Shown: positions 8,332 through 56,288 of the stretch, piece by piece | Numbering within the stretch: the first letter of the stretch is position 1 | How the letters are laid out: each line of letters begins with the position of its first letter | The notes under the pieces: model-generated | Seen by the model: the letters and a program-made list of their open reading frames with translations, nothing else | The model's database searches: none | What the model was told of the DNA's origin: nothing | NCBI GenBank assembly: GCA_017744735.1 | Contig: JAGIAR010000006.1 | Coordinates: forward strand, 62,001 to 126,000 | Source: Novosphingobium sp. | Lineage (GTDB): Bacteria; Pseudomonadota; Alphaproteobacteria; Sphingomonadales; Sphingomonadaceae | Direction: 5' to 3' | DNA: 64,000 nucleotides | Program-made: the position numbers and the translations under genes

Positions 8332-8377
8332 GCCCCACTCCTCAATTCAGGCCGGCTTGTCGCGCAGCGAATACCCA

Positions 8378-40752: not shown

Positions 40753-41736
40753 TCAGAATTCCTCAAGGTCCCTCGCGATAACCACCGGCCCCGGGTAGTG
40801 GGCGCCTATCTGGCGAAGATATTCGACCAGCACGTCTCCGGTCGCCTCGGGAGCAGACAGGTGCGTGACGACGACCGCCTTGGCATGGGCCAGCCCTGCC
40901 AGCTTGCCCACGTCTTCGCCGGTCAGATGGTGGGTCCGCAAATGGGTCTCGAGTGCCTTGGCTGCGGGTTCCGGCAGGTTCGGCGATGTGCGGCGGATTT
41001 CCTGCAGCGTGCGTTCGACGTCGATCATCTCGACCACCAACAGGTCGGCATCGCGGGCGATCGCCTGGAACTTGTCGCTCGGGCCGGTATCGCCGCTATA
41101 GACGATGACCCGATCGGGCAGTTCGAACCTGTAGGAAAGGGATTCGAATGCCCGGTCGTCGTCGCTCCCGGGCGCAAAGCTGTAATGGGTGTTCTTGGCT
41201 GCGACCACCCTGGCGGCCCCTAGCCTGAAGTTCGCACCGTCGCGCAGTTCGACAACCTCGATCCCCTGCCCCGGATCGACATACGGCGAGCCGGGCATGC
41301 CGTAGCCGGATTTCGCAGTCGGCAACATTGCCGCGAGAAGACCGTCCACGAGTTGCTTGGTTCCGGGTGGGCCGTAAATCGTCAGCGGGGTGTAAATATT
41401 GGTCTGGTAGCGGAGGCCGAGGATTCCGAGCAGGCCGGCCGTGTGATCGAAATGCAGGTGGCTGATCACGACCGCCTTCAACTGTGCCAGCGGCACCCCG
41501 GCCTTTGCCAGTTGCTCGGCTGCGCCGTCGCCTGCATCGACCAAATAGGCACCATCTCCGGTCAACAGCACGTTGGCCGGCTGAGAGCGCTTTGGCACGG
41601 GTATCGGTCCGCCTTGCGTTCCCAGGGTGATCCAATGACTAGCGGCCGGCTGGGTCTGCGCATGCACCGGGCAGATCGGACTGCCGAAGGCGAGAAGCAT
41701 CGCCGCAAAATACCGCAAGAAACGCATATGGATCAT
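40753..41736 (-). CDS. Secreted metallo-beta-lactamase-fold hydrolase
   Basis: 327 residues with a signal peptide (FLRYFAAMLLAFGSPICPVHA, then QTQP); starts at 41736 or at the internal ATG 41727. The zinc motif is ISHLHFDHTAGL, with later ligands in KNTHYSF, YSGDTGPSD and VVTHLSAPE, giving the complete RNase Z-like/arylsulfatase-like arrangement. ANVLLTGDGAYLVDAGDGA precedes it as in lactonases and arylsulfatases of the fold. It should be a periplasmic ester, lactone or sulfate hydrolase. Its promoter region faces that of the GST gene and contains both a module II operator and a Rieske gene relic. Confidence 0.85.
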   Translation of the reverse strand: MIHMRFLRYFAAMLLAFGSPICPVHAQTQPAASHWITLGTQGGPIPVPKRSQPANVLLTGDGAYLVDAGDGAAEQLAKAGVPLAQLKAVVISHLHFDHTAGLLGILGLRYQTNIYTPLTIYGPPGTKQLVDGLLAAMLPTAKSGYGMPGSPYVDPGQGIEVVELRDGANFRLGAARVVAAKNTHYSFAPGSDDDRAFESLSYRFELPDRVIVYSGDTGPSDKFQAIARDADLLVVEMIDVERTLQEIRRTSPNLPEPAAKALETHLRTHHLTGEDVGKLAGLAHAKAVVVTHLSAPEATGDVLVEYLRQIGAHYPGPVVIARDLEEF

Positions 41737-41851: not shown

Positions 41852-41869
41852 ATTCTTTTCTCTAGGAAT
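41852..41869. promoter_or_regulatory. Module II operator, GST/MBL promoter
   Basis: ATTCTT-N6-AGGAAT on the plus strand, which is ATTCCT-N6-AAGAAT on the other. It lies 46 bases before the GST start and upstream of the divergent metallo-hydrolase gene. The same 18-bp dyad recurs at 45368, 50162, 52677, 52699 and 54164. Confidence 0.7.
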
Positions 41870-41915
41870 ATTCTGACTTATCCGCAAGACCACTGGAACG
41901 CTCTGGAGACATGCG

Positions 41916-42593
41916 ATGGCCGCCAAGCTCTACATGGCCCCCTATACCTGCGCGCGGGTGACCGCGATCGCGCTGGAAGAGGCTGGAATCGAATTCGAGA
42001 CCAGTCTGGTCCGTTTCATGAAAGGCGAGCACAAGTCGCCCGAATTCAAGCGCTCCAATCCGAAGGGCAAGGTTCCAGCGCTCGAGATCGACGGCGACCT
42101 GCTGACCGAGAACGTAGCGATCCTGACCTATCTCGACGAACGTTTTCCGGAAGCGGGGCTCATGCCGGAAGCCGCTTCGCCCGGCCAACGGGCACGCAAC
42201 ACGGCCGACCTGTGCTTCTGCTCCTCGACGCTTCACCCGCTCGTCACCCGCATTCGCATGCCGATGTTTTTCGCCGGACCGGACAATGCGGTCGCCGTCA
42301 AGAGAACCGCGGAACTGGCGATGGATGAGTATTTCCAACTGGTCGAAGATCGCCTTGCCGATAAGCCGTGGTGGTACGGCGCCGACTGGTCCGCAATGGA
42401 CGGTTATCTCTACTGGATATTCTGGCGGGTGGAGGGGGCGGGCTATGACGTGTCGCGCTTTCCGCGTTTCTTGAGCCACGCCCGTGAAAACGAACGGCGT
42501 CCGGCGGTCGAGCGCGCGCTGGCCCGCGAAGAGGCATTGCAGCGGCAACTCGAGGCGGAAGGCGTGGCATTCGTACCGCCCAAGGTCGGCTGA
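41916..42593 (+). CDS. Glutathione S-transferase
   Basis: 225 residues; GGAGA lies six bases before the ATG. The N-terminal thioredoxin-like domain has the sequence AKLYMAPYTCARVTAIALEE with the Ser/Cys-type active-site region, the cis-proline segment KGKVPALEIDG and LTENVAILTYLDERFP. The C-terminal helical domain follows from residue 90 and includes WYGADWSAMDGYLYWIFW. In sphingomonad aromatic pathways such GSTs cleave beta-aryl ethers, isomerise maleyl-type products or open epoxides, so a catabolic role in module II is plausible. It is immediately followed by a convergent FAD monooxygenase gene (two bases apart). Confidence 0.88.
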   Translation: MAAKLYMAPYTCARVTAIALEEAGIEFETSLVRFMKGEHKSPEFKRSNPKGKVPALEIDGDLLTENVAILTYLDERFPEAGLMPEAASPGQRARNTADLCFCSSTLHPLVTRIRMPMFFAGPDNAVAVKRTAELAMDEYFQLVEDRLADKPWWYGADWSAMDGYLYWIFWRVEGAGYDVSRFPRFLSHARENERRPAVERALAREEALQRQLEAEGVAFVPPKVG

Positions 42594-42595
42594 GG

Positions 42596-43711
42596 TCAGA
42601 TCGGCTGCGCGAGCAGTGCGTTCATCTCCGCCCCCGCCCTGGCATTGTCTATCAGCGGCCCCAGCCCGAGCTGGCCGCGGCAGATTTCGAGCGACTTCTC
42701 GACCACGAAGCGGCAACGTTCGAGACGACGGGCGCGATAGGCGGTGAAGGCGTCTTCCGGCTCCGCGTGGCGGGCCAGTTCTTCGGCCAGCACCACCGCA
42801 TCCTCGATCGCCATGCCCCCGCCCTGGCCCAGATGGGGGGTAGTCGCATGAATTGCATCGCCCAGCAGCACGATCCGGCCCTTGTGCCACGGTCCGGATA
42901 TGAAAATCGCTTCGAGCGGACGATATACGACTTTCGCGTCCTCCGTGATCCGTTCCGCGATTTCCCGAATCGCCGGAGCGCAGCCCGCGAGTCGCTCCCG
43001 CATCCTTGCGGCAAGACCTTCGGTGGGAAAGACAGGATTGCCGGCCTCGGGAGTGGTTGCGTAGAGGTAGATGTGCTCGTCGCTCATCGGCACCAGCCCG
43101 ACGCCGGTGGGCCCGTTGTAGACCTGCATTGCGTCGAAGCCTTTCGGCCGCGGAAGATTGTAGCGCCAGACCGACTGGCCGGTGAATTCCGGATCTGGCG
43201 CTCGCGGGAAGATCAGCTTTCTCATCTGCGAATAGATGCCGTCGGCGCCGACCGCGATATCGAAACTGCCCTCGGTGCCGTCCGAAAACACCGCGTTCAC
43301 CGCCGAGCCTGCATCGGCGATTCCGGTTGCGACCGTGCCAGGCCGGATCGTCGCCCCCGCCCGCCGCGCCGCCTGGCCCAACACCCGGTGCAATGCGGGG
43401 CGCGGGATGCCCATGCTCGCCGGATAGCCTTCGATCAACGAACGCACCGGCACGCGCGCGACAAGCGACCCGCCTGGCGCATAGATTTCGGTCCATCTGT
43501 AAGCAAAGCCTGCGGCGACGTATTCTTCCGCAAGCCCGAGCCCGCCCAGGGCGCGCACCACATTCGCCTGCTGGCTGATGCCCACGCCTTCGACGCCATT
43601 GCCGTCGCTGCGCTCGATCACCGTGACGTCGAATCCGCGCTGTCCCAGCGCGATCGCTGCCGTGAGACCACCAATGCCGCCACCGACGACGAGGACCCGC
43701 AATTGTTTCAT
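42596..43711 (-). CDS. FAD-dependent monooxygenase, class A aromatic hydroxylase type (first)
   Basis: 371 residues; its ATG at 43711 overlaps the MFS stop (ATGA). The dinucleotide-binding VLVVGGGIGGLTAAIAL, the second FAD/NAD(P)H motif around VGADGIYSQMR (DG motif) and LLGDAIHATTPHLGQGGGMA (GD motif) define a salicylate-hydroxylase-like flavoprotein monooxygenase. It should hydroxylate a phenolic ring with NAD(P)H and O2. A similar enzyme is encoded at 48.1-49.2 kb; the two share the layout but are clearly diverged. It is the last gene of the minus-strand MFS operon and converges on the GST gene. Confidence 0.9.
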   Translation of the reverse strand: MKQLRVLVVGGGIGGLTAAIALGQRGFDVTVIERSDGNGVEGVGISQQANVVRALGGLGLAEEYVAAGFAYRWTEIYAPGGSLVARVPVRSLIEGYPASMGIPRPALHRVLGQAARRAGATIRPGTVATGIADAGSAVNAVFSDGTEGSFDIAVGADGIYSQMRKLIFPRAPDPEFTGQSVWRYNLPRPKGFDAMQVYNGPTGVGLVPMSDEHIYLYATTPEAGNPVFPTEGLAARMRERLAGCAPAIREIAERITEDAKVVYRPLEAIFISGPWHKGRIVLLGDAIHATTPHLGQGGGMAIEDAVVLAEELARHAEPEDAFTAYRARRLERCRFVVEKSLEICRGQLGLGPLIDNARAGAEMNALLAQPI

Positions 43712-44991
43712 GCGGACTGAAGGCCATCGGTCCTCGCTGACGACAGCCGGATCGCGAGGAGAAGGAAAGCGGCGGCGACCAGCGGCGTCGCCGCGATCGC
43801 GGCAATTCCATAGCGCAGGCTTTCGGTACCGAAGCGCGCCGAAAATGCGTCGCTGAGCACACCGACGGTAAACGGGCCGAGCGCTCCGCCAAGCAGGCCC
43901 GTCGCGGCCAGCATCATGGTCGAGGCGACCGCGCGGTCGCCCGGTCCTGCAACGGTGATTGCGTAGTTGACGCAAGGCGGGACCGCGCAGGCCAGCAGAA
44001 AATTCATCGCGAAGGCCGAGGTCATGGTGAGTAACAGGCTGGATGCAGCCGCAAACCCCGCCGCCGCGGGCGCTGCGAGCGGCAGCGCGACAAGGGGCAA
44101 TCGCAGCATGTCGATAAGCACTCCGCGCCGGCGCACCAGCCAGTCGGCGAGGACGCCGGAAAGCAGCGTGCCGAGGATCCCCGCTATCCCGACCGCCGGT
44201 CCGATAATCAGGCCGACCTGCGCCAAAGGCACGCCGTGACTCCGCTGAAGAAATGCCGGCCCCCACGCTCCAAGCACCGCACCGACCATTCCGGAGGTTC
44301 CGAACGCCAAAGCCAGCGGCACGAAACCCGGCGTGGACACGATCCGCGTGCAAGCGGCGACCAACTCGGGGAAGTAGGGGCCGTTACTGTCGCGCACGAT
44401 ATTCCGCGGGGGCTCCCGAACCGTCAGCAGGGTTACGGCCGACAGAATCACTCCTGCCGCCCCGCAGACCATGAACATCGGCCGCCAGCCAAGCGAAGCG
44501 GCAAGTATTCCCGCAAGCATCGTACCGCTGACAACTCCGACCATGCCGCTCGATTGGAATACCGCGATCGCCTTGCCCCGGGATTCGGGCCGGAACAGAT
44601 CCGGGATTAGCGACATTGCGGCGGGGAAGGCAGTCGCCTCCCCCACGCCGACCCCGATGCGGGCGAGTGCAAGGGTTCCGAAATCCTGCGCCAAGCCTGT
44701 CAGCGCCGTGGCGATCGACCAGCCCGCGATCCCGAGCGCGAGAATACGCTTGCGGTTGCCTACATCTATCAGCCGTGCCACGAACAGCCCGGCGACGAGG
44801 TTGAACAAGACGAACAGGAAGCCGCTCGCCAGCGAGATTTCGGTATCCGTGAGGCCGATTTCGCTGCGCACCGGCTCGGTCACCACGCCGAGCAATGTCC
44901 GGTCGCCGACGTTGAACACATTGGCTATAAAAAGCACGAATAGCGTCCAGCCCGCCGCGCCGCCCGCTCTCCGCCCAGATCGGGGCTTCAT
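43708..44991 (-). CDS. MFS transporter (module II, first)
   Basis: 427 residues with twelve hydrophobic helices. The N-terminal half shows ANVFNVGDRTLLGVVTEPVR and RLIDVGNRKRILALG, the MFS loop, then RIGVGVGEATAFPAAMSLIP, which resembles the spinster-like sphingomonad transporter at 8.5 kb. It is co-transcribed with a flavoprotein monooxygenase, overlapping it by four bases, so it probably imports the monooxygenase substrate or exports a product. Its nearest upstream control element is the dyad at 45368, with a possible small leader ORF between. Confidence 0.87.
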   Translation of the reverse strand: MKPRSGRRAGGAAGWTLFVLFIANVFNVGDRTLLGVVTEPVRSEIGLTDTEISLASGFLFVLFNLVAGLFVARLIDVGNRKRILALGIAGWSIATALTGLAQDFGTLALARIGVGVGEATAFPAAMSLIPDLFRPESRGKAIAVFQSSGMVGVVSGTMLAGILAASLGWRPMFMVCGAAGVILSAVTLLTVREPPRNIVRDSNGPYFPELVAACTRIVSTPGFVPLALAFGTSGMVGAVLGAWGPAFLQRSHGVPLAQVGLIIGPAVGIAGILGTLLSGVLADWLVRRRGVLIDMLRLPLVALPLAAPAAAGFAAASSLLLTMTSAFAMNFLLACAVPPCVNYAITVAGPGDRAVASTMMLAATGLLGGALGPFTVGVLSDAFSARFGTESLRYGIAAIAATPLVAAAFLLLAIRLSSARTDGLQSA

Positions 44992-45145
44992 GGCGCAAGC
45001 CGTTTCGCATCGGGTCTCGCGGACCGCAGGAACCGGGCCGCGTTCTTCCCGTAGCGTCGGCGTGGCCGGCCGACCGGAAAGTTATGTCGCCGAGAGACCG
45101 GCACGAGTGAAGCCGGCACGCGATGCATTGGGGCGAGGCGGTCCC

Positions 45146-45331
45146 TCAACGGACCCGTTCCAGATGAGGCAGTTGGGGCGCATCGAGGCCGGGAATCCGG
45201 GCCTTATCCTCCTCTTCCGGCCGGACGGGAAAGCCGAAAGCGTCGGGCTCGGCCACGCCGGACGGATAACCGGCGCCAAGGCAGAGCTTGCCCATCGCGT
45301 GCGCACCTTGGCGGAAAGGCCAGCTTGCCAT
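45146..45331 (-). CDS. Possible small ORF (61 residues) upstream of the MFS operon
   Basis: ATG at 45331 with GGGAG about nine bases upstream, ending at 45146. The predicted peptide begins MASWPFRQGAHAMGKLCLGA and contains SGVAEPDAFGFPVRPEEEDK; it has no signal peptide, membrane helix or motif I recognise. It lies 37 bases downstream of the dyad at 45368-45385 on the minus strand and 154 bases before the MFS start, and the 450-base region has no other gene. It could be a true small protein, the decayed end of a larger gene, or chance coding in GC-rich DNA. Confidence 0.35.
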   Translation of the reverse strand: MASWPFRQGAHAMGKLCLGAGYPSGVAEPDAFGFPVRPEEEDKARIPGLDAPQLPHLERVR

Positions 45332-45367
45332 CGGTATATTCTCCCGGGCGCCAACCCTAACGCACTT

Positions 45368-45385
45368 ATTCCTAGCGGCAAGAAT
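45368..45385. promoter_or_regulatory. Module II operator, tetR / MFS divergent promoter
   Basis: ATTCCT-N6-AAGAAT, identical in its arms to the copies at 50162 and 54164. It lies in the region between the minus-strand MFS operon and the plus-strand tetR gene (start 45444), so it can govern both and would allow the regulator to control itself. Confidence 0.75.
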
Positions 45386-45443
45386 ATATTGATGGGGCAA
45401 TTGCGGTTGTCGGATATTGCGCTTGCGCGTAGCACCGCAGGCG

Positions 45444-46088
45444 ATGGCAACAAGGCAGAATAAACCGGAGAAACGCGGTAAGGGCCGTCCGATGTCCAAC
45501 GCCAAGGGCGTAGGGCGCGAGGCCTTGATCGAGGCCGCCCGCGCTCTGCTGCAGGAACTGCCGCCGGCACAGGTGACCAGCACCGCCGTCGCGCGCCGCG
45601 CCGGGGCGGATCCTGCGCTGGTACGCTATTATTTCGGCAATCGCGAAAGCCTGCTGCTCGAAGTCGCCAAGCAGATCGCCGGCGAGGCCAGGCACATCCC
45701 GCCGACCGAGGGCGACCCGATCGAACTGCTGGTCGACTTCATCCGCAGCACCTTCCGTTTCACCCGTTCGGCCAAGCACATGCAGCGGCTGATGATCGAG
45801 GAGATCGACTCCGCCAGCTCCCCCCAAATGCGCGAACGGGCGCGCGAGTGGAATCAGCAGCCGGTGGATTACTACGCCAGGCTGCGGGAACTCGACGAGA
45901 AAGAGGAGTTGACCCGTTTCGACCCGCTGTTCTTGCACCTCGCGGTCGTCGGAATGAGCGACTTCTTCATCTCGGGCCGCCCGCTGATCGAGCTTCTGGT
46001 GCCCAAGGGTACCGACATGGAACAACTTTACCAGCAGTACGAAGCCTTCGTGACCCGGCTGGTGCTCGAAGGCCTCAAGCAGCGCTAG
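45444..46088 (+). CDS. TetR/AcrR family regulator, candidate regulator of module II
   Basis: 214 residues from the ATG at 45444; a later ATG at 45492 is possible. The basic N-terminus (RQNKPEKRGKGRP) precedes the TetR helix-turn-helix: REALIEAARALLQELPPAQV, TSTAVARRAGADPALVRYYFGNRE. The ligand domain includes FRFTRSAKHMQRLMIEEID. Its promoter contains the ATTCCT-N6-AAGAAT dyad, also found before most other genes of module II, which makes it the best candidate for the factor that binds it. The 3' end overlaps the convergent Rieske oxygenase gene by 14 bases. Confidence 0.88.
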   Translation: MATRQNKPEKRGKGRPMSNAKGVGREALIEAARALLQELPPAQVTSTAVARRAGADPALVRYYFGNRESLLLEVAKQIAGEARHIPPTEGDPIELLVDFIRSTFRFTRSAKHMQRLMIEEIDSASSPQMRERAREWNQQPVDYYARLRELDEKEELTRFDPLFLHLAVVGMSDFFISGRPLIELLVPKGTDMEQLYQQYEAFVTRLVLEGLKQR

Positions 46089-47109
46089 ACGCGCTTTCGT
46101 CGCGGATCAGCTTTTCGAGCATCCTCCTCGCGCGCGTGCCACCCTGGTCGATCCCGAGCGAGGCAGGCTTTTGCGACCAGAAGTCCTTCCCGCGAACATT
46201 GTCGTAGGCAGCTTCGATCATAGGCTTGTCTTCCAGGTCGAAAGCTTCGCCGAACAGATTTGCGAGCATGTGGTCGGTCTCGATCGAGTCCAGATCGTGG
46301 TACCGGGTGGACGACCAGAAATAGTGCGTCTCGTGCTCGCTCGCCGGCGTCAGGATGTGCGCCTGTGGAAGTTCGAAGCCGGTTTCGCGGGCCTGGCAAT
46401 GGCTGCATACGCCGACCGCAAGACGCATCGAAGCAGGCGCGTTCCACCGCATTTCCAGCCAGTGATCGACCAGCGAGTCCGGCGCGAACCGGCCATAGGC
46501 AACCGATGGCGGCGGGATCCCCGGCATGAACCAGTCGGAATGAAGCGTATCGCCTTCCGCCCTCACCGAATGCTCACCGGCGAAGATCACCCCCTGGCCG
46601 GCGAAGGTCCCCTTGTGGACGAACTCGATATGGCTGAGATCGAGCAAATTGTCCGTGCCGTATTCGTAATTCGCTTTCATCGCGGTGTAGCCATGGATCG
46701 TGCGGCTGAACGGCGTATCGGGCACGAAGGAAAAGTCCGGTATCAGAGAAGGATCGGCCTTCTCGCGCTCGCCCGCCCAAATCCACACAATGTCGTGGCG
46801 CTCGATGGCGGCGAAACCCTCAATGTCCGTACCGGCCGGAATACGCTCGGAAAACGGGTTGCGAATGCATTTGCCCTCGGGCGAAAAAGCCAGCCCGTGA
46901 TAGCCGCATACGAGGTTGTCTCCATCGCGCGAGCCGCGCGAAAGAGGCGCAAAGCGATGGGGGCAACGGTCGAGGACCGCCGCGATCGAACCATCGCCGA
47001 GCCGGTAAACGAACACCGGCCGATCGATGATCCGCCTCGCCAGGCCGTTTTCGCCGACTTCATGGCTCCATCCCGCCATATACCAGCAGTTCAGCAGCCA
47101 GCGGGCCAT
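46075..47109 (-). CDS. Rieske non-haem iron oxygenase, module II
   Basis: 344 residues. The Rieske centre is Cys49/His51 and Cys68/His71 in DRCPHRFAPLSRG and LVCGYHGL; the catalytic iron ligands His160 and His165 lie in GTDNLLDLSHIEFVHKG. It belongs to the same VanA-like group as the module I enzyme but differs over most of its length. It is the last gene of a four-gene minus-strand operon (dioxygenase, monooxygenase, FAH, this gene), five bases after the FAH stop. The reductase partner is not encoded here. A truncated paralogue remains at 41747-41836. Confidence 0.92.
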   Translation of the reverse strand: MARWLLNCWYMAGWSHEVGENGLARRIIDRPVFVYRLGDGSIAAVLDRCPHRFAPLSRGSRDGDNLVCGYHGLAFSPEGKCIRNPFSERIPAGTDIEGFAAIERHDIVWIWAGEREKADPSLIPDFSFVPDTPFSRTIHGYTAMKANYEYGTDNLLDLSHIEFVHKGTFAGQGVIFAGEHSVRAEGDTLHSDWFMPGIPPPSVAYGRFAPDSLVDHWLEMRWNAPASMRLAVGVCSHCQARETGFELPQAHILTPASEHETHYFWSSTRYHDLDSIETDHMLANLFGEAFDLEDKPMIEAAYDNVRGKDFWSQKPASLGIDQGGTRARRMLEKLIRDESASSAA

Positions 47110-47114
47110 CCGGC

Positions 47115-48083
47115 CTAGCCTCCCGAAGGCTCGGCGACACAGGGGTTGCGCTGGCTACCAAGCCCCGCGATCGTCGCTTCGATCACATCGCCGGGCTTGA
47201 GGAAGACCCCGAAGGCCGATCCGTTGCCATAGGGCGATCCGGTGCAGATCAGGTCGCCGGGCTCCAGCACCACGCGGCTCGCGAGATAGGCGACCTGGCG
47301 CTCGATCGAGACCATCATGTCCGAGGTGCTCTCGTCCTGGTAGACCTTGCCGTTGACCGAGAGCTTCAGGTTGAGATCGTACGGATCCTGCACCTGCTCC
47401 TTCGGCACGATCATCGGGCCGAAGGGAAGGAAGGTCGGGAAACTCTTGCCCGAGAGCCAGTCCGCCCCGATCGCCGAACCGTCGCGGCGGAAGATCAGTT
47501 CGCGCGCGGTCACGTCGTTCACCACTGCAAAGCCGGCGACGTAGTCCATCGCCTCTTCCGCTCCGATGCGATGCGCCCGCTTGCCGATCACCACGCCGAG
47601 CTCGAGCTCCCAATCGGGCTTCTCGACATCGTAGGGCAGCACGACCTCGTCGTTGGGGCCGATAACGCAGGACGGCAGCTTGAGAAACACGAAGGGCAAG
47701 GCTTTCGCGCGCTCGTCCATCATTTTCTCGACCCGCGCCTTCAACTCCTCCGGCGGCACGTTCTCGTGCTCGGCGGTGCGCATCGAGGGATCGCCCATGA
47801 TCAGCCCGACGACATGCTTCTTGTAGTTGGCGCCGGTGCAGAAGACCTGCCCGGGACGGTAGGGCGCGTGCACTTCGGCGCCCGCGAGGTCGGCGGCGCC
47901 GGCGAAGGCCACATCGTCCGCCGCCCATTCGCCCAGCCGCGGCAGCACCGCTTCCCAATCGCCGAGCAGCGCCGGCAGGTCGCGGGTCTCGCCCCAATGT
48001 GCAAGCGCCACGAAGCGCCCGTCGCGCACCAGCGCCGCCTGCGGCTTCCCGTCGACCGTGACCGTGGCCAATCCGTAAGTCAT
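47115..48083 (-). CDS. Fumarylacetoacetate hydrolase family protein (module II)
   Basis: 322 residues from the ATG at 48083, eight bases after the monooxygenase stop. The FAH core is evident: VFCTGANYKKHVVG, VFLKLPSCVIGPND, KPDWELELGVVIGK with the Glu-x-Glu metal ligands, GFAVVNDVTARELIF, KSFPTFLPFGPMIVP and LEPGDLICTGSPYGNG. Such proteins hydrolyse or hydrate the products of extradiol cleavage. It is diverged from the module I FAH protein, which lacks the YKKHV segment. In the operon it follows the type I extradiol dioxygenase and a monooxygenase, the natural order for ring hydroxylation, cleavage and product processing. Confidence 0.9.
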   Translation of the reverse strand: MTYGLATVTVDGKPQAALVRDGRFVALAHWGETRDLPALLGDWEAVLPRLGEWAADDVAFAGAADLAGAEVHAPYRPGQVFCTGANYKKHVVGLIMGDPSMRTAEHENVPPEELKARVEKMMDERAKALPFVFLKLPSCVIGPNDEVVLPYDVEKPDWELELGVVIGKRAHRIGAEEAMDYVAGFAVVNDVTARELIFRRDGSAIGADWLSGKSFPTFLPFGPMIVPKEQVQDPYDLNLKLSVNGKVYQDESTSDMMVSIERQVAYLASRVVLEPGDLICTGSPYGNGSAFGVFLKPGDVIEATIAGLGSQRNPCVAEPSGG

Positions 48084-48091
48084 CGCATTCC

Positions 48092-49210
48092 TCAGTAAGG
48101 CTGCTGGAGCTTGTGCATGGTGTCGCCGAGCATCGCATTGGCATCCATCTGATTGCCGCCGCTCATCTCGATCTCGCCGATCCGGACCGAATTCTCGACC
48201 ACCATCCGTGCGCGCTCGAAGCGCCGCGCGGTGAAGGCGTCCAGCGCCGCGGCGACATCGTCGTTGGCAGCCAGTTCCTCTGCCAGCACCAGCCCGTCTT
48301 CCACCGCCATCCCCGCTCCCGAAGCCATGTGCGGCGTCGTTGCATGGACCGCGTCGCCGATCAGCACGATCCTGCCTTGGTGCCACGGCCCCTGCAGCAG
48401 CACCCATTCGAGCGGACGGTAATTGACCAGCGAATCCAGCCCCAGCCCCGCCCTGACGGAAGGCACGTAGCCGCCGAAGGGCGCGAGCAATTCCGCCACA
48501 TGGGCGAGCTGCTCCTCGGGCGCGAACCACGGGTTGTCGGGCACGTGCTCGAGGATAAAGGCGTACATCCTGTCCGCGGACACCGGGTTGAAGCCGAGCT
48601 TGACCGGCCCTCCGAGGAACATTTCAGGGCGATCGACCTCGGCCGGACGCTCGGCGACGATCCGCCAGCAGCCCTGCCCGGTGAATTGCGGCGCAGGCGC
48701 GTCGGGAAACAGGCTGGCACGGGTCTCGGAGAAAATCCCGTCAGCCGCGACCACCAGCTCGTAGCTCTCGCTGCGGCCGTCCGAGAAGGTCGCTTCCACC
48801 GCGCCGTCGGATTGCTGGAAGCCGGTGGGCCTTACGCCCAGCGTTACCTCGACCCCCGCTTCGCGGGTGCGGCGCGACATGATCTCGTGCAGCACCGGCC
48901 GCATGATCCCGCCGCTGCGCGCCACCGGCGGCGCGGCATCGGGCACAGGCGGCGTCTCGAACATAGGGGTGCCGTCGATCCCGCGCAGGCGGATGCCTGC
49001 GCCGACGAAACCGCGCTGCCGTACCTCGTCGAGAATCCCGAGATCGTCGAACGCCCGCAGCGACAGGCCGGTCACGCTGATCCCCGCACCATAGGCGCGC
49101 CATTGCGGATCGGCGTCGACCAGTTCGACCTCCACGCCGCGGCGAACCAGCGCCAGCGCAGCGCTCATCCCGCCGACCCCGCCGCCGACGACCAACGCTT
49201 TCGAGATCAT
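48092..49210 (-). CDS. FAD-dependent monooxygenase, class A (second, module II)
   Basis: 372 residues; its ATG at 49210 overlaps the dioxygenase stop (ATGA). Motifs are ALVVGGGVGGMSAALALVRR, VVAADGIFSETRASLFP and VLIGDAVHATTPHMASGAGM. It is a salicylate/hydroxybenzoate-hydroxylase-like flavoprotein that should ortho-hydroxylate a phenol to the catechol needed by the dioxygenase encoded just upstream. Similarity to the enzyme at 42.6-43.7 kb is moderate and extends over the full length, so they are related by an older duplication, not a recent one. Confidence 0.9.
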   Translation of the reverse strand: MISKALVVGGGVGGMSAALALVRRGVEVELVDADPQWRAYGAGISVTGLSLRAFDDLGILDEVRQRGFVGAGIRLRGIDGTPMFETPPVPDAAPPVARSGGIMRPVLHEIMSRRTREAGVEVTLGVRPTGFQQSDGAVEATFSDGRSESYELVVAADGIFSETRASLFPDAPAPQFTGQGCWRIVAERPAEVDRPEMFLGGPVKLGFNPVSADRMYAFILEHVPDNPWFAPEEQLAHVAELLAPFGGYVPSVRAGLGLDSLVNYRPLEWVLLQGPWHQGRIVLIGDAVHATTPHMASGAGMAVEDGLVLAEELAANDDVAAALDAFTARRFERARMVVENSVRIGEIEMSGGNQMDANAMLGDTMHKLQQPY

Positions 49211-50112
49211 GCCGGGACCTGCCACAGACCCTTGTCCGGGGTCATTTCGGCGTGCGGAACATTGCCGGTGATGATCCTGCCGGTGCCCCACTGGTCGATC
49301 GTGTTCGGGCCGGGCTGATAGGTGGTCGGCACCCAGGTGGCCTCGTCGACGTGCTCGAGATCCGAGGTGTATTCGACCGCATTGCCGTTGGGTGTGATGA
49401 AATAGCAGAAGGTGTTGTCGCCCGCCGTGTGCCGGCCTGGCCCCCAGCTCAGATGGATCCCGCTCTCGTGCATCCGCGCCAGGCCGCGCATCAACTCGTC
49501 GACGGAAGCGACGTCGAAGGCGATATGGTTGAGCGCCGGCGGCCCGGGCAGCACCGCAATCCGGTGATGCGCCGAATTGCAGCGCAGGAAACCCATGAAA
49601 TCGCCGATCCAGTCGGACAGCCGAAAGCCCAGCGCACGCTGGTAGAATTCGACCAGCGCCGGATGGTTCGGCGAATGGAACACCACATGGCTGATCCCGA
49701 CCGGGATCGCCTCGCCCTTGCCGAGCGTGCGATGCGCCCGCTGCGCGCCACCGGTAACGACCTCCATCGCGCGGCCATCCGGATCGAAGAAGCGGAAACC
49801 GTAATCGCCGGCCAGACCTTCGACGGGACCCGGCTCGGCGATGATCTTCGCGCCCGCCGCCTTGACCTGTTCGAACAGCGCATCGACATCCTCGCGCGAG
49901 GCGGCCGAGAAGCCCACCAGATCGGTCTTGCGCTCATCGTCCCGACGCAGCCGGATGACATAGGGGTGCGGCATGCCTTCGGCTGCGAAATAGACCATGC
50001 CGTCTTCCTCGCCCACTTCGGTAAGGCCCCATGTCTGGCCGAAAAACTCCCGCTCTGCCGCGAGGTCGGGCACGGCGAGAGCCACATATTGCAGGTCGGT
50101 AACGCTGGCCAT
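49207..50112 (-). CDS. Type I (VOC) extradiol ring-cleavage dioxygenase
   Basis: 301 residues with two VOC modules. Residues 1-125 are the non-catalytic half and 137-260 the catalytic half. The iron ligands are visible as His142 (VGISHVVFHSP), His196 (ALNHIAFDV) and Glu247 (NAVEYTSD), the 2-His-1-carboxylate facial triad of BphC/catechol 2,3-dioxygenase-type enzymes. It should open a substituted catechol by meta cleavage. It is the first gene of the operon that also encodes a monooxygenase, FAH protein and Rieske oxygenase. The dyad at 50162 is 50 bases before its start. It is unrelated to the MhpB-like enzyme of module I. Confidence 0.92.
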   Translation of the reverse strand: MASVTDLQYVALAVPDLAAEREFFGQTWGLTEVGEEDGMVYFAAEGMPHPYVIRLRRDDERKTDLVGFSAASREDVDALFEQVKAAGAKIIAEPGPVEGLAGDYGFRFFDPDGRAMEVVTGGAQRAHRTLGKGEAIPVGISHVVFHSPNHPALVEFYQRALGFRLSDWIGDFMGFLRCNSAHHRIAVLPGPPALNHIAFDVASVDELMRGLARMHESGIHLSWGPGRHTAGDNTFCYFITPNGNAVEYTSDLEHVDEATWVPTTYQPGPNTIDQWGTGRIITGNVPHAEMTPDKGLWQVPA

Positions 50113-50161
50113 CAGGCGATATTCCTTATTCGAAAACGAACTTCCGGGCAGGAGGAGCACT

Positions 50162-50179
50162 ATTCCTGCCCGGAAGAAT
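50162..50179. promoter_or_regulatory. Module II operator, dioxygenase operon promoter
   Basis: ATTCCT-N6-AAGAAT with arms identical to the tetR promoter copy, 49 bases upstream of the dioxygenase start on the minus strand, in the short gap between that operon and the TonB receptor gene. Confidence 0.75.
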
Positions 50180-50189
50180 TTACAATGCG

Positions 50190-52649
50190 TCAGGGCAGCT
50201 TGGCGCTGACCCGAACGCCATAGGTGCGGGGCGGCTCGAAGGTGCCGATGAAGGCGTTCACGTTCGACACCAGAGTGACGGTGGAGAGACGGCGTTCGTT
50301 GCCGATGTTGTTGACGAACGCGGTAATCGTCCACTTGTCGTCACTGGGCCCGAATGCAAGCGAGGCGTTCGCGACAAAGGTATCGTCGGCCTCGAGGTAA
50401 GGATTGAACGCGACGTCGATCTGCGCCTTGCCGCGATAGCGGCCATCGGCATGCACGACGAACTTGTAATCGCCCATGGGGATGGTCTGTTCGCCCATCA
50501 CGTTGAACGACCACTTCGGCGAATTCAGTGCGTCCTGGCCCGAGCAGTCCACCTTGTACACCGCCACCGTGCTGCCGTTCACGCTCTGCGTCGTCGGAGA
50601 GGTGCCGCAGGCCGTGATCGGCGGCGGCCCCTGGTTGGGCACGTAATAGACGAAGCTGTCGTAGTTGCTGTGCAGGTACTGCACGCTCGCGCCGAGCATG
50701 GTGTTCTGCGCCGGCAGCCACTGCACGTCGGCATCGAAGCCGTACATCGTCGCCTGGCCGATGTTGCGGGTCAGGAACACCGTGGTCGGCGGGGTGCCGA
50801 GGTCATAGCCGAACTGGCTGACCTGCTGGTTGTGGTACTTCCAGTAGAAGCCCTCGATGTTGAACTGCACCGTGTTGTTGGCGAAGCGGTTCTTGGACCC
50901 GATCGTCCACGCGTCGAGCGTCTCGGGCTTGTAGGTCTCGAGGCCCTTGGCGAAGGCAAAACCGCCCGAATGGTAGCCGGTCTCGTAGCTCGCATAGACC
51001 ATATTGTCCGGCGTGATCTGGTACTCCGCCGCGAGCCGGTAGGTGAACTTGTTGTTGTTCAGCTTCTGGTCGTTGATCGAGATCGGCGCGTTGAGGACGA
51101 ACGGCGCAGTCTGCGAGCCGCCGAACTGCGGCGGCAGCACGTAGAGCGGCACGTTCACGACCGGGATGCCGGCATTGGCGTAGAAGTCGCGCAGTTCCTG
51201 CGCAGTATCGACCAGCGGGATGAACGGCAGATTCGGGCACGAGTTCGGCGGAACCGACGCGGGGTTGCCGCAGAACAGCAGGTAGACGTCCGAAGTCCCG
51301 TCGAACTTCTTGCGGTCGGAGGTGTAGCGCCCGGCCGCGGTCAGCTTCAGCCCAGGTGCGACCTCGTAGCTCAGCTTGCCGAACGCCGCGTAGGAATCGG
51401 TGCCGGTGGTGAAATCCTGATACGGCACCAGCGTGAACTGCGAGAAGTAGGTGTAGCTCGCGATCCGCTCGTGGAAATAGTAGCCACCGAGGAGGATATC
51501 GAGCTTGTCGCCGATATCGACCGCATAGCGCGCCTCGAGGCTGGTCTGCTTGTCCTTTTCGTTGGTCTTGGCGCCGTTCATCCCGGCGGTGAAGAGATTG
51601 TCGAGGTCCGCTTCGCGATAGGCGGGGATCACGGTGAGCGAGCCTGCGCCGACATCGACGTTGATCTCGGCGTTGACGCCCCAATAGTCGTTGTTGTTGT
51701 AGGGTACGCCCTCGATGAACTTGCCCGTGCGCCCGACCTGCGGAACGTAGAGCGCCGCGTCATAGGCCTGCGATGCGGGGCTCAGGATTCCGTTCTTGGG
51801 ACCGAACCCGCTGGGTGTGTAGGTGTAGCCCTGGAACCCGCTCATGCCGTAGTTCGCGGTGGCCTTTCCCAGATAGGTGGAGAACGATCCGACGCCGCCC
51901 TGGTGCGCATAGTCGGCGGCGATCCGGGCGTGGATCGCGGGCGAAAGCTCGGCGGCGAACTGGGCGCGGAACCCGTATTCCTTCAGATCTCCTGTGCCGT
52001 CGTCGAGATAGGCATCGTGGGCGACGTAGTTGCCCGCAACACGGAACGCGGCGTTGTCGCCGACGGCAAGGTTGGCCGCCCCCTGCAGGGTCACCGCATT
52101 GTAGTTGCCATAGCTCGCGAGAACCGACAGCGAGTTGTCGCCGAGCTTGGGCGTGTTCGGAATCACGTTGATCGCGCCGCCGGTGGCGTTGCGGCCGTAC
52201 AGCGTTCCCTGGGGGCCTTTCAGCACCTCGACCCGGGCGAGGTCGTAGAACGTGCCCGAGGTCGACGAAGGCCGGCCGATGTAGATCCCGTCGTAGTTGA
52301 AGGCGACGCCTGGATCGGAATAGGCGTTGAGAGTGGAATTGCCGACGCCGCGCACGAAGAACACCGAATAGGGTCCGCCGTTGTTGGTGATCGAGAGCGC
52401 CGGGACCAGCTTGCTGAGATCTTCCGGCCGGGCGACCGCCGCCTGTTCGAGCGCATCTGCGCTCACCACACTTATCGCGATCGGCGCGCGCTGCGCGCTT
52501 TCCTCGACGTGCTGCGCGGTCACGATGATGTCGGTGATGCCCCCTTGGTCCGCCGCGGCTGTATCCGCGTCTTGGGCGAAAGCCGCGTCGAGCGGCACCG
52601 CCGTCAAGAGCGCGACGGCGGATACACTCAGAAGAAGCCGGTTAGCCAT
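50190..52649 (-). CDS. TonB-dependent receptor of module II
   Basis: 819 residues from the ATG at 52649, chosen because it is preceded by AGGGAGATGG and begins a signal peptide (RLLLSVSAVALLTAVPLDAA, then FAQDAD). TonB-box-like DIIVTAQHVEE, plug residues ARVEVLKGPQGTLYGRNATG, and a barrel that ends YGVRVSAKLP mark a complete receptor of the same broad class as the module I receptor. Two tandem copies of the module II dyad sit 27 and 49 bases upstream. It probably brings in the aromatic or terpenoid substrate of the downstream oxygenases. Confidence 0.92.
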   Translation of the reverse strand: MANRLLLSVSAVALLTAVPLDAAFAQDADTAAADQGGITDIIVTAQHVEESAQRAPIAISVVSADALEQAAVARPEDLSKLVPALSITNNGGPYSVFFVRGVGNSTLNAYSDPGVAFNYDGIYIGRPSSTSGTFYDLARVEVLKGPQGTLYGRNATGGAINVIPNTPKLGDNSLSVLASYGNYNAVTLQGAANLAVGDNAAFRVAGNYVAHDAYLDDGTGDLKEYGFRAQFAAELSPAIHARIAADYAHQGGVGSFSTYLGKATANYGMSGFQGYTYTPSGFGPKNGILSPASQAYDAALYVPQVGRTGKFIEGVPYNNNDYWGVNAEINVDVGAGSLTVIPAYREADLDNLFTAGMNGAKTNEKDKQTSLEARYAVDIGDKLDILLGGYYFHERIASYTYFSQFTLVPYQDFTTGTDSYAAFGKLSYEVAPGLKLTAAGRYTSDRKKFDGTSDVYLLFCGNPASVPPNSCPNLPFIPLVDTAQELRDFYANAGIPVVNVPLYVLPPQFGGSQTAPFVLNAPISINDQKLNNNKFTYRLAAEYQITPDNMVYASYETGYHSGGFAFAKGLETYKPETLDAWTIGSKNRFANNTVQFNIEGFYWKYHNQQVSQFGYDLGTPPTTVFLTRNIGQATMYGFDADVQWLPAQNTMLGASVQYLHSNYDSFVYYVPNQGPPPITACGTSPTTQSVNGSTVAVYKVDCSGQDALNSPKWSFNVMGEQTIPMGDYKFVVHADGRYRGKAQIDVAFNPYLEADDTFVANASLAFGPSDDKWTITAFVNNIGNERRLSTVTLVSNVNAFIGTFEPPRTYGVRVSAKLP

Positions 52650-52676
52650 GATTCCATCTCCCTTGGATATTGTTAT

Positions 52677-52694
52677 ATTCCACAGGCTAGGAAT
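52677..52694. promoter_or_regulatory. Module II operator, receptor promoter (proximal copy)
   Basis: ATTCCA-N6-AGGAAT, an exact 5-bp-armed dyad of the same spacing as the other copies. It lies 22 bp, about two helical turns, from the second copy at 52699-52716, so two dimers could bind on the same face. Confidence 0.6.
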
Positions 52695-52698
52695 TTTT

Positions 52699-52716
52699 AT
52701 TCCGGTCAGCAAGAAT
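52699..52716. promoter_or_regulatory. Module II operator, receptor promoter (distal copy)
   Basis: ATTCCG-N6-AAGAAT. It overlaps the end of the upstream MFS gene (stop at 52706), so the receptor promoter extends into that coding sequence. Confidence 0.65.
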
Positions 52717-53917
52717 TTTTCTGCCGACTCCCGTTACTCGACCGGCATCCTCGGGGAACGGCGGCAAACAGCATTGCCGGCACCAGCAATCCGGCCCCGA
52801 CGCACAGCAGCGGCGCCTGGTATCCACCGGCCCGGTCGGCAAGATAGCCGATCCAGAGCGGGCTGATTCCGGCCGCGACCGTGAAGGCCGCATATTGCAG
52901 CGCATAGGCGCGACTGTAGGCCGCAATCGGAAAGTTGCGCGCCGTGAGGATGCCGATCAGGTCGGCCTCGGCTCCCATCGCCGCGCCCAGGGCTAGTGCG
53001 CCGGCCGGGGCCAACGCGGTGCCTCCGAGCGCGAGCGCGACGCAGCCGAGTGCGCAGACCACGCAGCTCGCCGCGCCGAGCCAGGCGGGCTCGATCCGGT
53101 CCGCCAGCCAACCGACCACGATCCGTGTCACAATCACCGACATGCCGATCAGTCCGGCGAGCGCCGCCGCGCGTTCTATCTGCAGGCCGCCTTCGCGCAG
53201 CATCGGCACGAAATGGGTCAGCATGCCGGCAAAGGCGAGCGCCATCGCGGTGAACGCGGCAAGCTGGATGAGGAACGGCCGGGATCGGCGGAGAGCGGCA
53301 AAGCCCGCGCCATCCTCCCGGTCCCTTCCGGCCGCGATCGTTGGCCGCCCAGGCAGGCCGAACAAGGCAGGCAGCAATCCCAGAGCCGCGAGTCCGGCAA
53401 GGACGACGAATCCGTTGCGCCAGCCGTGCCGCGCGATCTCGGTCCCGACCAGCGGCGGGACCAGTGCGGCCGCCAGCCCGATCCCGACCTGCGTCAGGCC
53501 AAGCGCCAGTCCGCGCGAACGCTCGAACCCAGCAACGACGGCGCGGGTGAAAGGAACCGGCGCCGACGGAGCGGCAAACAGCCCAAGCGCGACCATCGCC
53601 GCAAAATAGGCTGCGATCGAATGCACCGCCGAAAGCAGGAGGAAGCCGAGCGCCAGCGCGGCCGCACCGCCCGCCGCCACCGCTCTTGCACCGAACCGGT
53701 CGACCAGGCGACCAACCACCGGCATCGCCGCTGCGAGCGAGACGGTCGCACCGAAAAAGGCAGCACCGTAAGCCGTCCGGCTGAGGCCGATGTCCTTGCC
53801 CAGCCCTTCGACGAACAGGCCCGAATTATAGGTAAGCAGACCGGAGATGCCGAGCCCGGAGCCCAACCCAGCCGCGAGCACGACCCGCCATCCTTGCCGG
53901 AACTCTCCCATCCCCAT
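52706..53917 (-). CDS. MFS transporter, monocarboxylate-transporter-like (module II, second)
   Basis: 403 residues with twelve hydrophobic helices, beginning WRVVLAAGLGSGLGISGLLTY. The loop RLVDRFGARAVAAGG and the helix with PVPFTRAVVAGFERSRGLALGL resemble the monocarboxylate/oxalate-type MFS branch more than the spinster-like transporters elsewhere in the window. It is upstream of the receptor gene on the same strand with 56 bases between stop and receptor start. A degenerate dyad (ATTCCC-N6-GTGAAT, 53954-53971) lies 37 bases before its start and may place it in the module II regulon. It probably imports acids from the periplasm. Confidence 0.85.
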   Translation of the reverse strand: MGMGEFRQGWRVVLAAGLGSGLGISGLLTYNSGLFVEGLGKDIGLSRTAYGAAFFGATVSLAAAMPVVGRLVDRFGARAVAAGGAAALALGFLLLSAVHSIAAYFAAMVALGLFAAPSAPVPFTRAVVAGFERSRGLALGLTQVGIGLAAALVPPLVGTEIARHGWRNGFVVLAGLAALGLLPALFGLPGRPTIAAGRDREDGAGFAALRRSRPFLIQLAAFTAMALAFAGMLTHFVPMLREGGLQIERAAALAGLIGMSVIVTRIVVGWLADRIEPAWLGAASCVVCALGCVALALGGTALAPAGALALGAAMGAEADLIGILTARNFPIAAYSRAYALQYAAFTVAAGISPLWIGYLADRAGGYQAPLLCVGAGLLVPAMLFAAVPRGCRSSNGSRQKNSC

Positions 53918-53953
53918 CCCGCCGCCTTGAGCCGTGCGGCCGACCCGCGCCGA

Positions 53954-53971
53954 TATTCCCTGCCACGTGAA
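53954..53971. promoter_or_regulatory. Degenerate module II operator before the second MFS gene
   Basis: ATTCCC-N6-GTGAAT: only the outer ATTC/GAAT four bases are symmetrical, but the spacing and the position upstream of a module II gene match the other copies. A single such match could arise by chance. Confidence 0.35.
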
Positions 53972-54163
53972 TTAAGCGACCCGCCACGACTTGGCAATCC
54001 GCGGGCCCATCGATCACACTGGGTCGGGCAGCTCGATCTGGGACTTGATCGACTGACCGGAGCGTTTTTGCGGCAGCGGCAGCAAGCTTTCGAGCAGCGC
54101 CTCCTTCGCTCATGCCCTCGCGGCAGCATGAGCGCTTGCGCCGGGCAAGGTTTTTGCCGATAA

Positions 54164-54181
54164 ATTCCTTAGAGCAAGAAT
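54164..54181. promoter_or_regulatory. Module II operator, amidohydrolase promoter
   Basis: ATTCCT-N6-AAGAAT, arms identical to the copies at 45368 and 50162. It ends 26 bases before the start of the first amidohydrolase gene, in the divergent region facing the second MFS transporter. Confidence 0.75.
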
Positions 54182-54207: not shown

Positions 54208-55272
54208 ATGGATGTGGACCGTCGTACCGTTCTGGGAAGTGTCGCGATTGGAACCGCGAGCGCTTCCTTTCCCAAGTCGGCATTCGCAGCAGGTGAGAAA
54301 CCGTATCGTCGCATCGCTTGCGAGGAGGGATTTCTTTCTCCGGGAGTATTGGCGCAGAACAAGATATCCTCCACTTCCGCTCTCCAGTTGATCTCTGCCG
54401 ATGGACCCGCGGCGTTCCTTGCCGGTCCGCTGTTGGACCTCGGCGAGGGGCGGATCGCGGCGATGGACGCAGACGGCATCGACATGCAGTTGCTGCTGCT
54501 CAGCTCTCCGGGGGTGCAGGCCTTCGACGCGGCGACCGCGGCCAGCCTTGCGGGCGAGGCAAACGATTATGCTTCTGCGGCCTGCGCCAGATATCCAAGC
54601 CGTTTCGCCGCGCTGGCCGCACTGGCGCCGCAGGATCCCGCGGGTGCGGTGCGCGAGTTGCAGCGCGCCGCCACCCTCCCCGGCATCAAGGGAGCGATCG
54701 TCAACAGCCACACCAACGGAGAATATCTCGACGCCACCAAGTATTGGCTGCTTTTCGAGGCGCTGGAAGCAATGGACCTGCCGCTCTACATCCATCCGCG
54801 CGAGCCGGCCGGATCGATGAACCAGATAATGGCCGGCCCGGTCGTGGGCGGGCCGGCGTGGGCCTATGCCGTCGAAACCGGAACCCATGTACTTCGCCTG
54901 ATCCAGGCGGGGGTATTCGACCGGTTTCCGAAGCTGCGCGTCGTGATCGGTCATATGGGCGAAGCCTTGCCGTTCTGGCTGCCGCGCATCGATAACCGTT
55001 ATCGCTTCAACCTGCGCGGGCCGTCGAAACTCGCGAGACTTCCGGGAGATTATATTCGCGAGAACGTCTGGATCACGACGAGCGGCATGAACTACTGGCC
55101 TCAACTCGAAATGACCCTGAAGGTGCTCGGCCCCGATCGCCTTCTTTATGCAACCGATTATCCGTTCGAGAAGCAGGGTGAGGCGGTCGGCTTCGTGGAA
55201 GCGATGCCGCTGGACGCAGCACAGAAGAAAGCTCTTTTCGAGGATAACGCCACACGGGTGTTCAAGCTATGA
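54208..55272 (+). CDS. Exported amidohydrolase-2 family protein, LigW/resorcylate-decarboxylase-like
   Basis: 354 residues; ATG follows GAGAGG. A twin-arginine-like signal (VDRRTVLGSVAIGTASASF) suggests periplasmic location, unusual for this group. The metal centre has Glu39 in IACEEGF, His196 (LYIHPRE), His249 (VIGHMGEALPFW) and Asp317 (YATDYPF). The His that follows the first Glu in gamma-resorcylate decarboxylase is Gly41 here, as in LigW-type decarboxylases. The RIDNRYRF segment typical of decarboxylating members is present. It should remove CO2 from, or hydrolyse, an aromatic acid. It is translationally coupled to a second exported amidohydrolase (four-base overlap). Confidence 0.85.
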   Translation: MDVDRRTVLGSVAIGTASASFPKSAFAAGEKPYRRIACEEGFLSPGVLAQNKISSTSALQLISADGPAAFLAGPLLDLGEGRIAAMDADGIDMQLLLLSSPGVQAFDAATAASLAGEANDYASAACARYPSRFAALAALAPQDPAGAVRELQRAATLPGIKGAIVNSHTNGEYLDATKYWLLFEALEAMDLPLYIHPREPAGSMNQIMAGPVVGGPAWAYAVETGTHVLRLIQAGVFDRFPKLRVVIGHMGEALPFWLPRIDNRYRFNLRGPSKLARLPGDYIRENVWITTSGMNYWPQLEMTLKVLGPDRLLYATDYPFEKQGEAVGFVEAMPLDAAQKKALFEDNATRVFKL

Positions 55273-56288
55273 GATGTTCACGCCGTTTCGTTTTGGGAGG
55301 GGCTGCGGCGACGATGCTGGGCGGATCGCTGCGTGCAACAGCTGCTCCCGGTTTCGTGACCGATGCGATCGATGTCCACCATCATTTTTTGCCACCTTTC
55401 TACAAGCCGCTCGCGAAGGGCTGGATGGACAAATTTGCGACCGGTGTCGACGCGGTAATGGCATGGAATCCCGAAGCCTCGCTCGCTGCCATGGATGAGG
55501 CACGAGTGACGCGGGCTGTCCTCTCGATCTCTTCGCCCGGCGTGCATTTCGGTGACGATGCGCAGGCGCGCGAGCTTGCCCGCGACTGCAACGATTACGC
55601 GTCGGCCTTGGGCAGTGCGCATCCAGGCCGGTTCGACTTCTTCGCCGCTTTGCCCATGCCGGATGTCGACGGAGCCATTCGCGAAGCGGAGCGGGCCCTG
55701 AAACTCGATGGCGCGAAGGGAGTGGGCCTGCTCAGCAATTACGGCGGCCGCTATCTGGGCGATCCCGATTTTCGGCCCTTGTTCGAATGGCTCGGGAAAC
55801 GGGGTGCGCTGGTCTATGTTCATCCCACGGATGCGCCCTGCTGCGCCGGACTCGTAGCCGAACTCGCTACACCGCTGATCGAATTTCCGGTCGATACAGG
55901 CCGGACAATTGCGAGCTTGCTTTGGTCCGGCACCTTCAGCGCCTTTCCGAAAGTCCGGTTCATCTTTTCGCATGGTGGCGGCGTGTTTCCGATGGTCGCC
56001 GAGCGCGTAATCGCGATGGGCTTCGTGAACAGGTCGTTGCTTGCGAAGGTACCGGAAGGAGCTGCGGCCGCATTATCGCGACTCTACGTCGACACCGCCA
56101 GTGTCACGCTTCCGGCTGCAATGGCCGCGTTACGTGCGTGGCTGCCGGAAGGGCAGATCCTTTACGGCACGGACTTTCCTTGGGGCACGCTTGCCGCATC
56201 ACGCACGGCACTTAACCGTCTGGGAATGCCGACAGAAAAACTGGCAGCCATCGAAAGTGGGAATGCGCGGCGCTTGCTCGACGAATAG
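55269..56288 (+). CDS. Exported amidohydrolase-2 family protein, ACMSD-like
   Basis: 339 residues, starting four bases before the previous stop. A twin-arginine-type signal (CSRRFVLGGAAATMLGG) directs export. The metal-binding DVHHHF (His37, His39), LVYVHPTD, IFSHGGGVFPM and YGTDFPWG are all present, so the full His-x-His-type site of aminocarboxymuconate-semialdehyde decarboxylase-like enzymes is intact, unlike in its neighbour. Both enzymes of the pair probably act on consecutive or alternative acid intermediates in the periplasm. It is the last gene before a 250-base gap with a hairpin and the convergent DeoR gene. Confidence 0.85.
   Translation: MRCSRRFVLGGAAATMLGGSLRATAAPGFVTDAIDVHHHFLPPFYKPLAKGWMDKFATGVDAVMAWNPEASLAAMDEARVTRAVLSISSPGVHFGDDAQARELARDCNDYASALGSAHPGRFDFFAALPMPDVDGAIREAERALKLDGAKGVGLLSNYGGRYLGDPDFRPLFEWLGKRGALVYVHPTDAPCCAGLVAELATPLIEFPVDTGRTIASLLWSGTFSAFPKVRFIFSHGGGVFPMVAERVIAMGFVNRSLLAKVPEGAAAALSRLYVDTASVTLPAAMAALRAWLPEGQILYGTDFPWGTLAASRTALNRLGMPTEKLAAIESGNARRLLDE

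Follow-up and report, generated by a model that had tools for sequence, protein, structure and literature searches.

A conserved palindrome at the promoters of a predicted TetR-controlled aromatic-degradation regulon split between two loci in Novosphingobium

The nearest described case by kind to the system considered here is EdcR of Caenibius tardaugens, a TetR repressor of the estradiol edc cluster, which acts on the operator TnnCnnTACnAnTnGTAnnGnnA and carries the ligand domain PF16859 (PMC8700777). In the accessible portion of that paper, EdcR palindromes lie at several cluster promoters and overlap the −10 box, and the operons and edcT are controlled together (PMC8700777). Here, we describe an 18-bp dyad with the consensus ATTCYT-N6-ARGAAT in a 64,000-nucleotide stretch of a Novosphingobium sp. 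genome (GCA_017744735.1, contig JAGIAR010000006.1, positions 62,001 to 126,000; hereafter the window), where it marks promoters of a catabolic module that includes a tetR gene. C. tardaugens is a related sphingomonad and, as with EdcR, a TetR-type regulator here accompanies a catabolic cluster that has palindromes at several promoters. However, the operator and the C-terminal family differ (TnnCnnTACnAnTnGTAnnGnnA and PF16859 versus ATTCYT-N6-ARGAAT and TetR_C_29 / TetR_C_3 here), which rules out EdcR as the same system on the account available, and that account, unlike the present case, describes neither a second locus nor split copies.

Two further sphingomonad systems are comparable in part, as far as the accessible text of each report goes. 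PheR of Sphingobium sp. SHPJ-2 is likewise a repressor of aromatic degradation, with reported effects on TonB-linked functions, although it belongs to the IclR family and has a reported minimal motif of GCAACG (PMC13273656); a regulator of this type was ruled out, as the motif differs and the window's protein matches TetR families in Pfam and no IclR family. In C. tardaugens, the bsd I cluster of the bile-salt pathway also combines a TetR gene with an amidohydrolase, and the palindromes ATAGGGCCATTG and GCATGCGGGATGC have been proposed as its operators (PMC12882949), but these are unlike the present dyad and the pathway is a different one. The accessible part of a paper on lignin dimers (PMC12997858) contains nothing on the present cluster, and a literature search, whose coverage mostly excluded subscription journals, returned no paper on the cluster or the motif among the matches listed. 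The kind of system, a TetR-controlled catabolic regulon, is already known, and the present one offers a clear example of a divergent unit that has come apart into two loci.

We propose that the TetR-family protein encoded at 45444–46088 most likely uses the dyads as its operators. It is a predicted repressor that a pathway compound would release, and the dyads would define a predicted aromatic-degradation regulon spanning the module and a second locus on contig 13. Six strong dyads and a weaker seventh lie where an earlier note, made from the sequence alone, had placed them (Table 1), apart from the degenerate copy, which is present but starts at 53955 rather than 53954. That note had also put the dyads 26–60 bases from start codons; this holds between the end of dyad 45368 and tetR (58 bp) and fails towards the MFS start, which is 376 bp away. 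With up to two mismatches, ATTCYTNNNNNNARGAAT has seven matches in the window (shuffled sequences: mean 2.57, largest 7), namely four exact copies, the two receptor dyads with one mismatch each and a site at 8377 with two. The arms ATTCCT/AAGAAT are unaltered at 45368, 50162 and 54164 and recur on the minus strand at 41852. When three mismatches to the strict pattern were allowed, the count alone was not significant (25 window matches against a shuffled mean of 17.7).

A matrix built exclusively from relatives gave these seven sites the highest scores in the window (24.4, 24.3, 24.2, 23.1, 21.5, 15.5 and 15.2 bits), ahead of an eighth, at 8377, with 12.6 bits. At ≥15 bits, these seven compare with a mean of 0.12 (maximum 2) for 300 symmetric column-permuted matrices and of 0.15 (maximum 2) in 60 order-1 Markov windows. 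The matrix comprises 46 sites at syntenic promoter positions in other genomes (16 before tetR, 7 before the VOC dioxygenase gene, and 12 and 11 at the receptor); it draws no VOC site from the 10 clusters that lack one, no receptor site from clusters L088, L089, L090 or L091, no weaker partner site from L033 or L085, and none from the small-protein or GST genes. The weaker dyad-like site at 8377–8394 adjoins another TetR-family gene (7678–8331, minus strand).

The dyads recur in orthologous clusters, a comparison that the earlier note had proposed. They precede tetR in 17 of 19 clusters, the window included (exceptions L088 and L091), and at least one is present in all 18 receptor promoters for which sequence was available, though the VOC dioxygenase gene is preceded by one in 8 of 18 clusters; the stretch of L026 does not include the receptor promoter, nor that of L088 the VOC promoter. 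Tandem dyads 22 bp apart occupy 12 of the 18 receptor promoters (L033 among them), with spacings of 23 bp in L034, 24 bp in L085, 46 bp in L090 and 48 bp in L089, and a single dyad in L088 and L091. In several clusters lacking a VOC dyad, a few dozen bases separate the end of the receptor gene from the VOC gene downstream of it, so VOC may be transcribed from the receptor promoter there. Cluster L030 also has a dyad before GST and a 15.8-bit dyad between MFS2 and AH2. In a TetR-controlled catabolic regulon, more than one promoter of a pathway carries the operator and orthologous clusters keep it there, and this is the pattern that the dyads show.

The protein at 45444 is a member of the TetR/AcrR family, with an N-terminal TetR_N helix-turn-helix (PF00440, 34.1 bits, cut-off 24) and a predicted all-helical fold that includes a ligand-binding C-terminal domain (TetR_C_29, PF17938, 34.4 bits, cut-off 26.2). 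Its structural model consists entirely of helices (mean pLDDT 78.3), and the best folds retrieved from the PDB with Foldseek were TetR-family regulators, with TM-scores up to about 0.7. Among 298 genomes of the family, the exact dyad was found in all 12 that have a close ortholog of this TetR protein (E below 1e-80), compared with 69 of the other 286 (Fisher P 9e-8). Where a genome has no VOC relative beyond 47–56% identity, the dyad occurs in its exact form about as often as in the background (7/34). Together with the retention of tetR beside the dyad in orthologous clusters, the association with TetR agrees with the earlier suggestion that this protein is the best candidate for the regulator. 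An operator and a likely regulator are thereby proposed for a sphingomonad pathway present in 16 of the 298 genomes. The operator is common to the receptor, transporter, oxygenase and hydrolase genes, and identifying the inducer would give a lead to the substrate.

More distant relatives carry related arrangements. L024 contains, at 16338–20050, a second TetR gene (28% identical), an FAH paralog and the variant dyads ATTCCTATGTAGCGGAAT and ATTCCTATATAACGGAAT, which share CGGAAT on one side; it is perhaps a sister regulon with a shifted operator, and it suggests that this TetR branch may read sites of the type ATTCC...GGAAT. L101 holds a cluster with a 33% identical TetR and exact dyads at 2034, 8997 and 9919, which raises the possibility that a broader group of TetR proteins shares the motif.

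The position of the dyads relative to promoter boxes, all of which were read from conservation, suggests how such a repressor might act. At the MBL2 promoter of the divergent hydrolase operon, the TTG of the apparent −35 box lies within the dyad in 16 of 18 rows and TAnnnT follows 16 nt on in 15 of 18 (exceptions L033, L089 and L090). Spacer bases are class-specific: base 12 is C in 16/16 tetR/MBL2-class dyads versus 15/30 elsewhere, base 7 is G in 11/12 distal receptor dyads versus 11/34, and A in 10/11 proximal ones versus 4/35. These bases coincide with the needs of the leftward −35 TTG, the receptor −35 TTG and the receptor −10 TA. The six-base "spacer" of the dyad thus carries apparent promoter boxes, as expected if repression works by occlusion. 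Each 18-bp palindrome (core ATTC-N10-GAAT) would be occupied by one dimer; at the receptor, the two dyads would hold the −35 and −10 boxes, at the hydrolase operon the −35 box would lie within the dyad, and at the dioxygenase operon the dyad would fill the spacer between the boxes. As the palindromes overlap apparent promoter boxes, a bound repressor would exclude RNA polymerase, until a pathway compound releases it. The predicted receptor boxes are 17 nt apart in the window, and the 22-bp operator spacing therefore fits the box spacing. The earlier note had placed one copy in tetR's own promoter. Dyad 45368 does adjoin tetR, but direct autorepression is less sure because 21 bp separate it from the start of the best tetR boxes, and the site looks more like the operator of the divergent hydrolase operon than an autoregulatory one.

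Several observations count against assigning the dyads to this TetR protein. When four genomes with a 45–48% identical TetR are included, the exact dyad is found in 14 of 16 versus 67 of 282 genomes, and the genomes with TetR at ≥45% and VOC at ≥70% form an identical set of 16, so that the survey cannot separate the TetR protein from the pathway. One of the 12 close-ortholog genomes (G199) probably matches by chance, because its sole exact match lies inside an unrelated open frame (L097), its own cluster having one-mismatch dyads. Moreover, 10 of 18 clusters lack the VOC dyad, two (L088 and L091) have none before tetR, the small-protein gene described below lies inside five clusters with a dyad near it in only three, and the counts are not independent since the clusters and sequences are related. 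It is conceivable, if unlikely, that another regulator uses the dyads as operators and that the linked TetR acts on other targets or on its own gene alone: TetR_N matched 20 times in the genome, including three times in the window, and linkage and co-occurrence cannot prove binding. On the other hand, the protein at 45444 is the regulator kept beside the dyad in the clusters read, though it was the query with which these were retrieved, the window's other two TetR proteins differ from it in their predicted recognition helices as judged by eye, and the distant TetR paralog of L024 also accompanies variant dyads of the same shape.

That the TetR protein binds the dyads and activates, or both activates and represses, is less probable still. 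Because the dyad does not include the tetR promoter boxes, its occupation need not repress that promoter, and the sites at 53955 and 54164 have no clear boxes. Nonetheless, the receptor, hydrolase and dioxygenase dyads cover an apparent −35 box, −10 box or spacer, where a bound dimer would block polymerase. A chance clustering of AT-rich palindromes has next to no probability. The exact matches in genomes without a close TetR ortholog do mean that the pattern has a background, yet seven window sites stand against the 0.12–0.15 expected and their syntenic positions are conserved; chance was rejected on the ranking by the relatives-only matrix and on the permuted-matrix and Markov-window controls. 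An open-frame test of the background matches (L075 was not judged) is not relied on, because true promoter dyads also overlap open frames (67–664 codons) in these GC-rich genomes.

Operation as TetR operators would extend beyond the window. A scan of the genome (3.53 Mb, 18 contigs) gave six exact dyads confined to two loci, four in the window and two on contig 13, and 15 matches with at most one mismatch versus three for the reversed pattern; two of the nine one-mismatch matches are the receptor dyads 52677 and 52699 and seven lie elsewhere. The looser pattern ATTC-N10-GAAT had 25 matches, 16 of them outside both loci, against one for its control, a pattern with stop triplets that probably understates the background. 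The two exact dyads on contig 13 precede other genes of the same ancestral cluster; a motif limited to the module was accordingly rejected, and the regulon is not self-contained, as the earlier note had held it to be. In L016 (contig 13, 14000–33000), the dyad at 9876 precedes genes for an MBL-fold hydrolase (9930), a fumarylacetoacetase-like FAH (10885) and an amidohydrolase (12162). In relatives, those three enzymes adjoin tetR and are divergent from it, usually with the dyad between.

The second L016 dyad, at 9185, overlaps the apparent Shine-Dalgarno sequence of a gene (9204–9533) for a 109-residue small protein whose N-terminus is signal-like; the protein had no Pfam match, recurs with the pathway in relatives and is a possible regulon member. 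In the five clusters in which this gene lies near tetR, a dyad is nearby in L032, L086 and L087, whereas none reaches 12 bits at the gene in L031 and L033. G069 and G138 (L092 and L093) have a dyad of the same sequence at the small-protein gene, which in both genomes is on a different contig from tetR. In three genomes of the genus (L016, where the dyad spans 9185–9206, L092 and L093), the small-protein dyad holds an AGGAG Shine-Dalgarno-like stretch and ends 1–2 bases before the ATG; in L032 and L087 it also has AGGAG and is placed further upstream. In G240 (L098), again on a contig different from tetR's, a dyad with TTGTCG-16-TAGGTT precedes an acetoacetate decarboxylase-like gene (a by-eye reading) and an MFS1 homolog.

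The two loci contain decayed copies of one segment. Window positions 45300–45597 align with contig 13 at 88% identity over 298 columns. The window copy retains tetR whole and its hydrolase operon has shrunk to a 61-codon open reading frame (ORF), while contig 13 keeps the operon and has only the 5′ part of tetR, interrupted by single-base gaps, after which comes a short stretch that matches the 3′ end of FAH1. In this remnant, both tetR promoter boxes are altered (the −10 TAGCAC has become CAGCAC) and the start codon ATG is TTG. The dyad persists in both copies, with 12/12 arm bases kept and 2/6 spacer bases different. The predicted hydrolase promoter boxes are intact in the window as well and are now directed at MFS1 and FMO1, which this orphaned promoter may drive. 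A divergent catabolic unit (hydrolase operon, dyad, tetR) was probably duplicated and then underwent reciprocal loss, leaving the repressor in one copy, the target operon in the other and the operator in both. A pathway once controlled in cis would thereby have become a two-locus regulon: the hydrolase operon on contig 13 would be controlled in trans, and the operator-promoter left behind in the window would now serve the transporter-monooxygenase operon brought nearer by deletion. The two copies offer a natural test of which regulatory bases persist once a divergent promoter splits.

Table 1. Dyads, predicted promoter boxes and genes of the module (window coordinates; bits from the relatives-only matrix)
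Feature	Position	Strand	Remarks
Dyad	41852..41869		Between MBL-fold hydrolase (40753-41736, -) and GST gene (41916-42593, +); exact match; 24.2 bits
FMO1 (FAD monooxygenase) and MFS1 transporter	42596..44991	-	Now downstream of scar ORF
Scar ORF, 61 codons	45146..45331	-	MBL2 start fused to AH3 end; matches both ends of contig-13 operon
Predicted leftward promoter	45354..45381	-	TTGCCG (45376-45381, within dyad), 16 nt, TAGGGT (45354-45359)
Dyad	45368..45385		Between tetR and remnant of divergent hydrolase operon; exact match; 24.4 bits
Predicted tetR promoter boxes	45407..45435	+	TTGTCG, 17 nt, TAGCAC
TetR-family regulator	45444..46088	+	TetR_N and TetR_C_29 above cut-offs; likely binder of the dyads
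Operon: VOC dioxygenase, FMO2, FAH1, Rieske oxygenase	46075..50112	-	
Predicted dioxygenase boxes	50180-50185; 50157-50162		TTGTAA; TAGTGC; dyad 50162 fills spacer
Dyad	50162..50179		Before dioxygenase operon; exact match
TonB-dependent receptor	50190..52649	-	Plug and beta-barrel domains above cut-off
Dyad, promoter-proximal at receptor	52677..52694		One mismatch; 15.2 bits; conserved partner of 52699
Predicted receptor -10	52684-52689		TAGCCT; within dyad 52677
Dyad, distal at receptor	52699..52716		22 bp from 52677; one mismatch; 23.1 bits
Predicted receptor -35	52707-52712		TTGCTG; within dyad 52699
Degenerate dyad	53955..53972		Before MFS2 (52706-53917, -); three mismatches; sixth in window, 15.5 bits
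Dyad	54164..54181		Before amidohydrolase pair (54208-55272 and 55269-56288, +); exact match; 24.3 bits

L026 and L030 keep FMO1 and MFS1 in the same order after the hydrolase operon. The VOC dioxygenase is close to PDB 3b59, some of its relatives are labelled 2,3-dihydroxy-p-cumate/2,3-dihydroxybenzoate 3,4-dioxygenase in one source, and the nearest match of the Rieske protein is dicamba O-demethylase. The Rieske gene (46075–47109) follows FAH1 here, and in L030 it stands beside the GST and MBL hydrolase genes, again adjoining a dyad. Enzymes thus appear to shift from one operon of the regulon to another.

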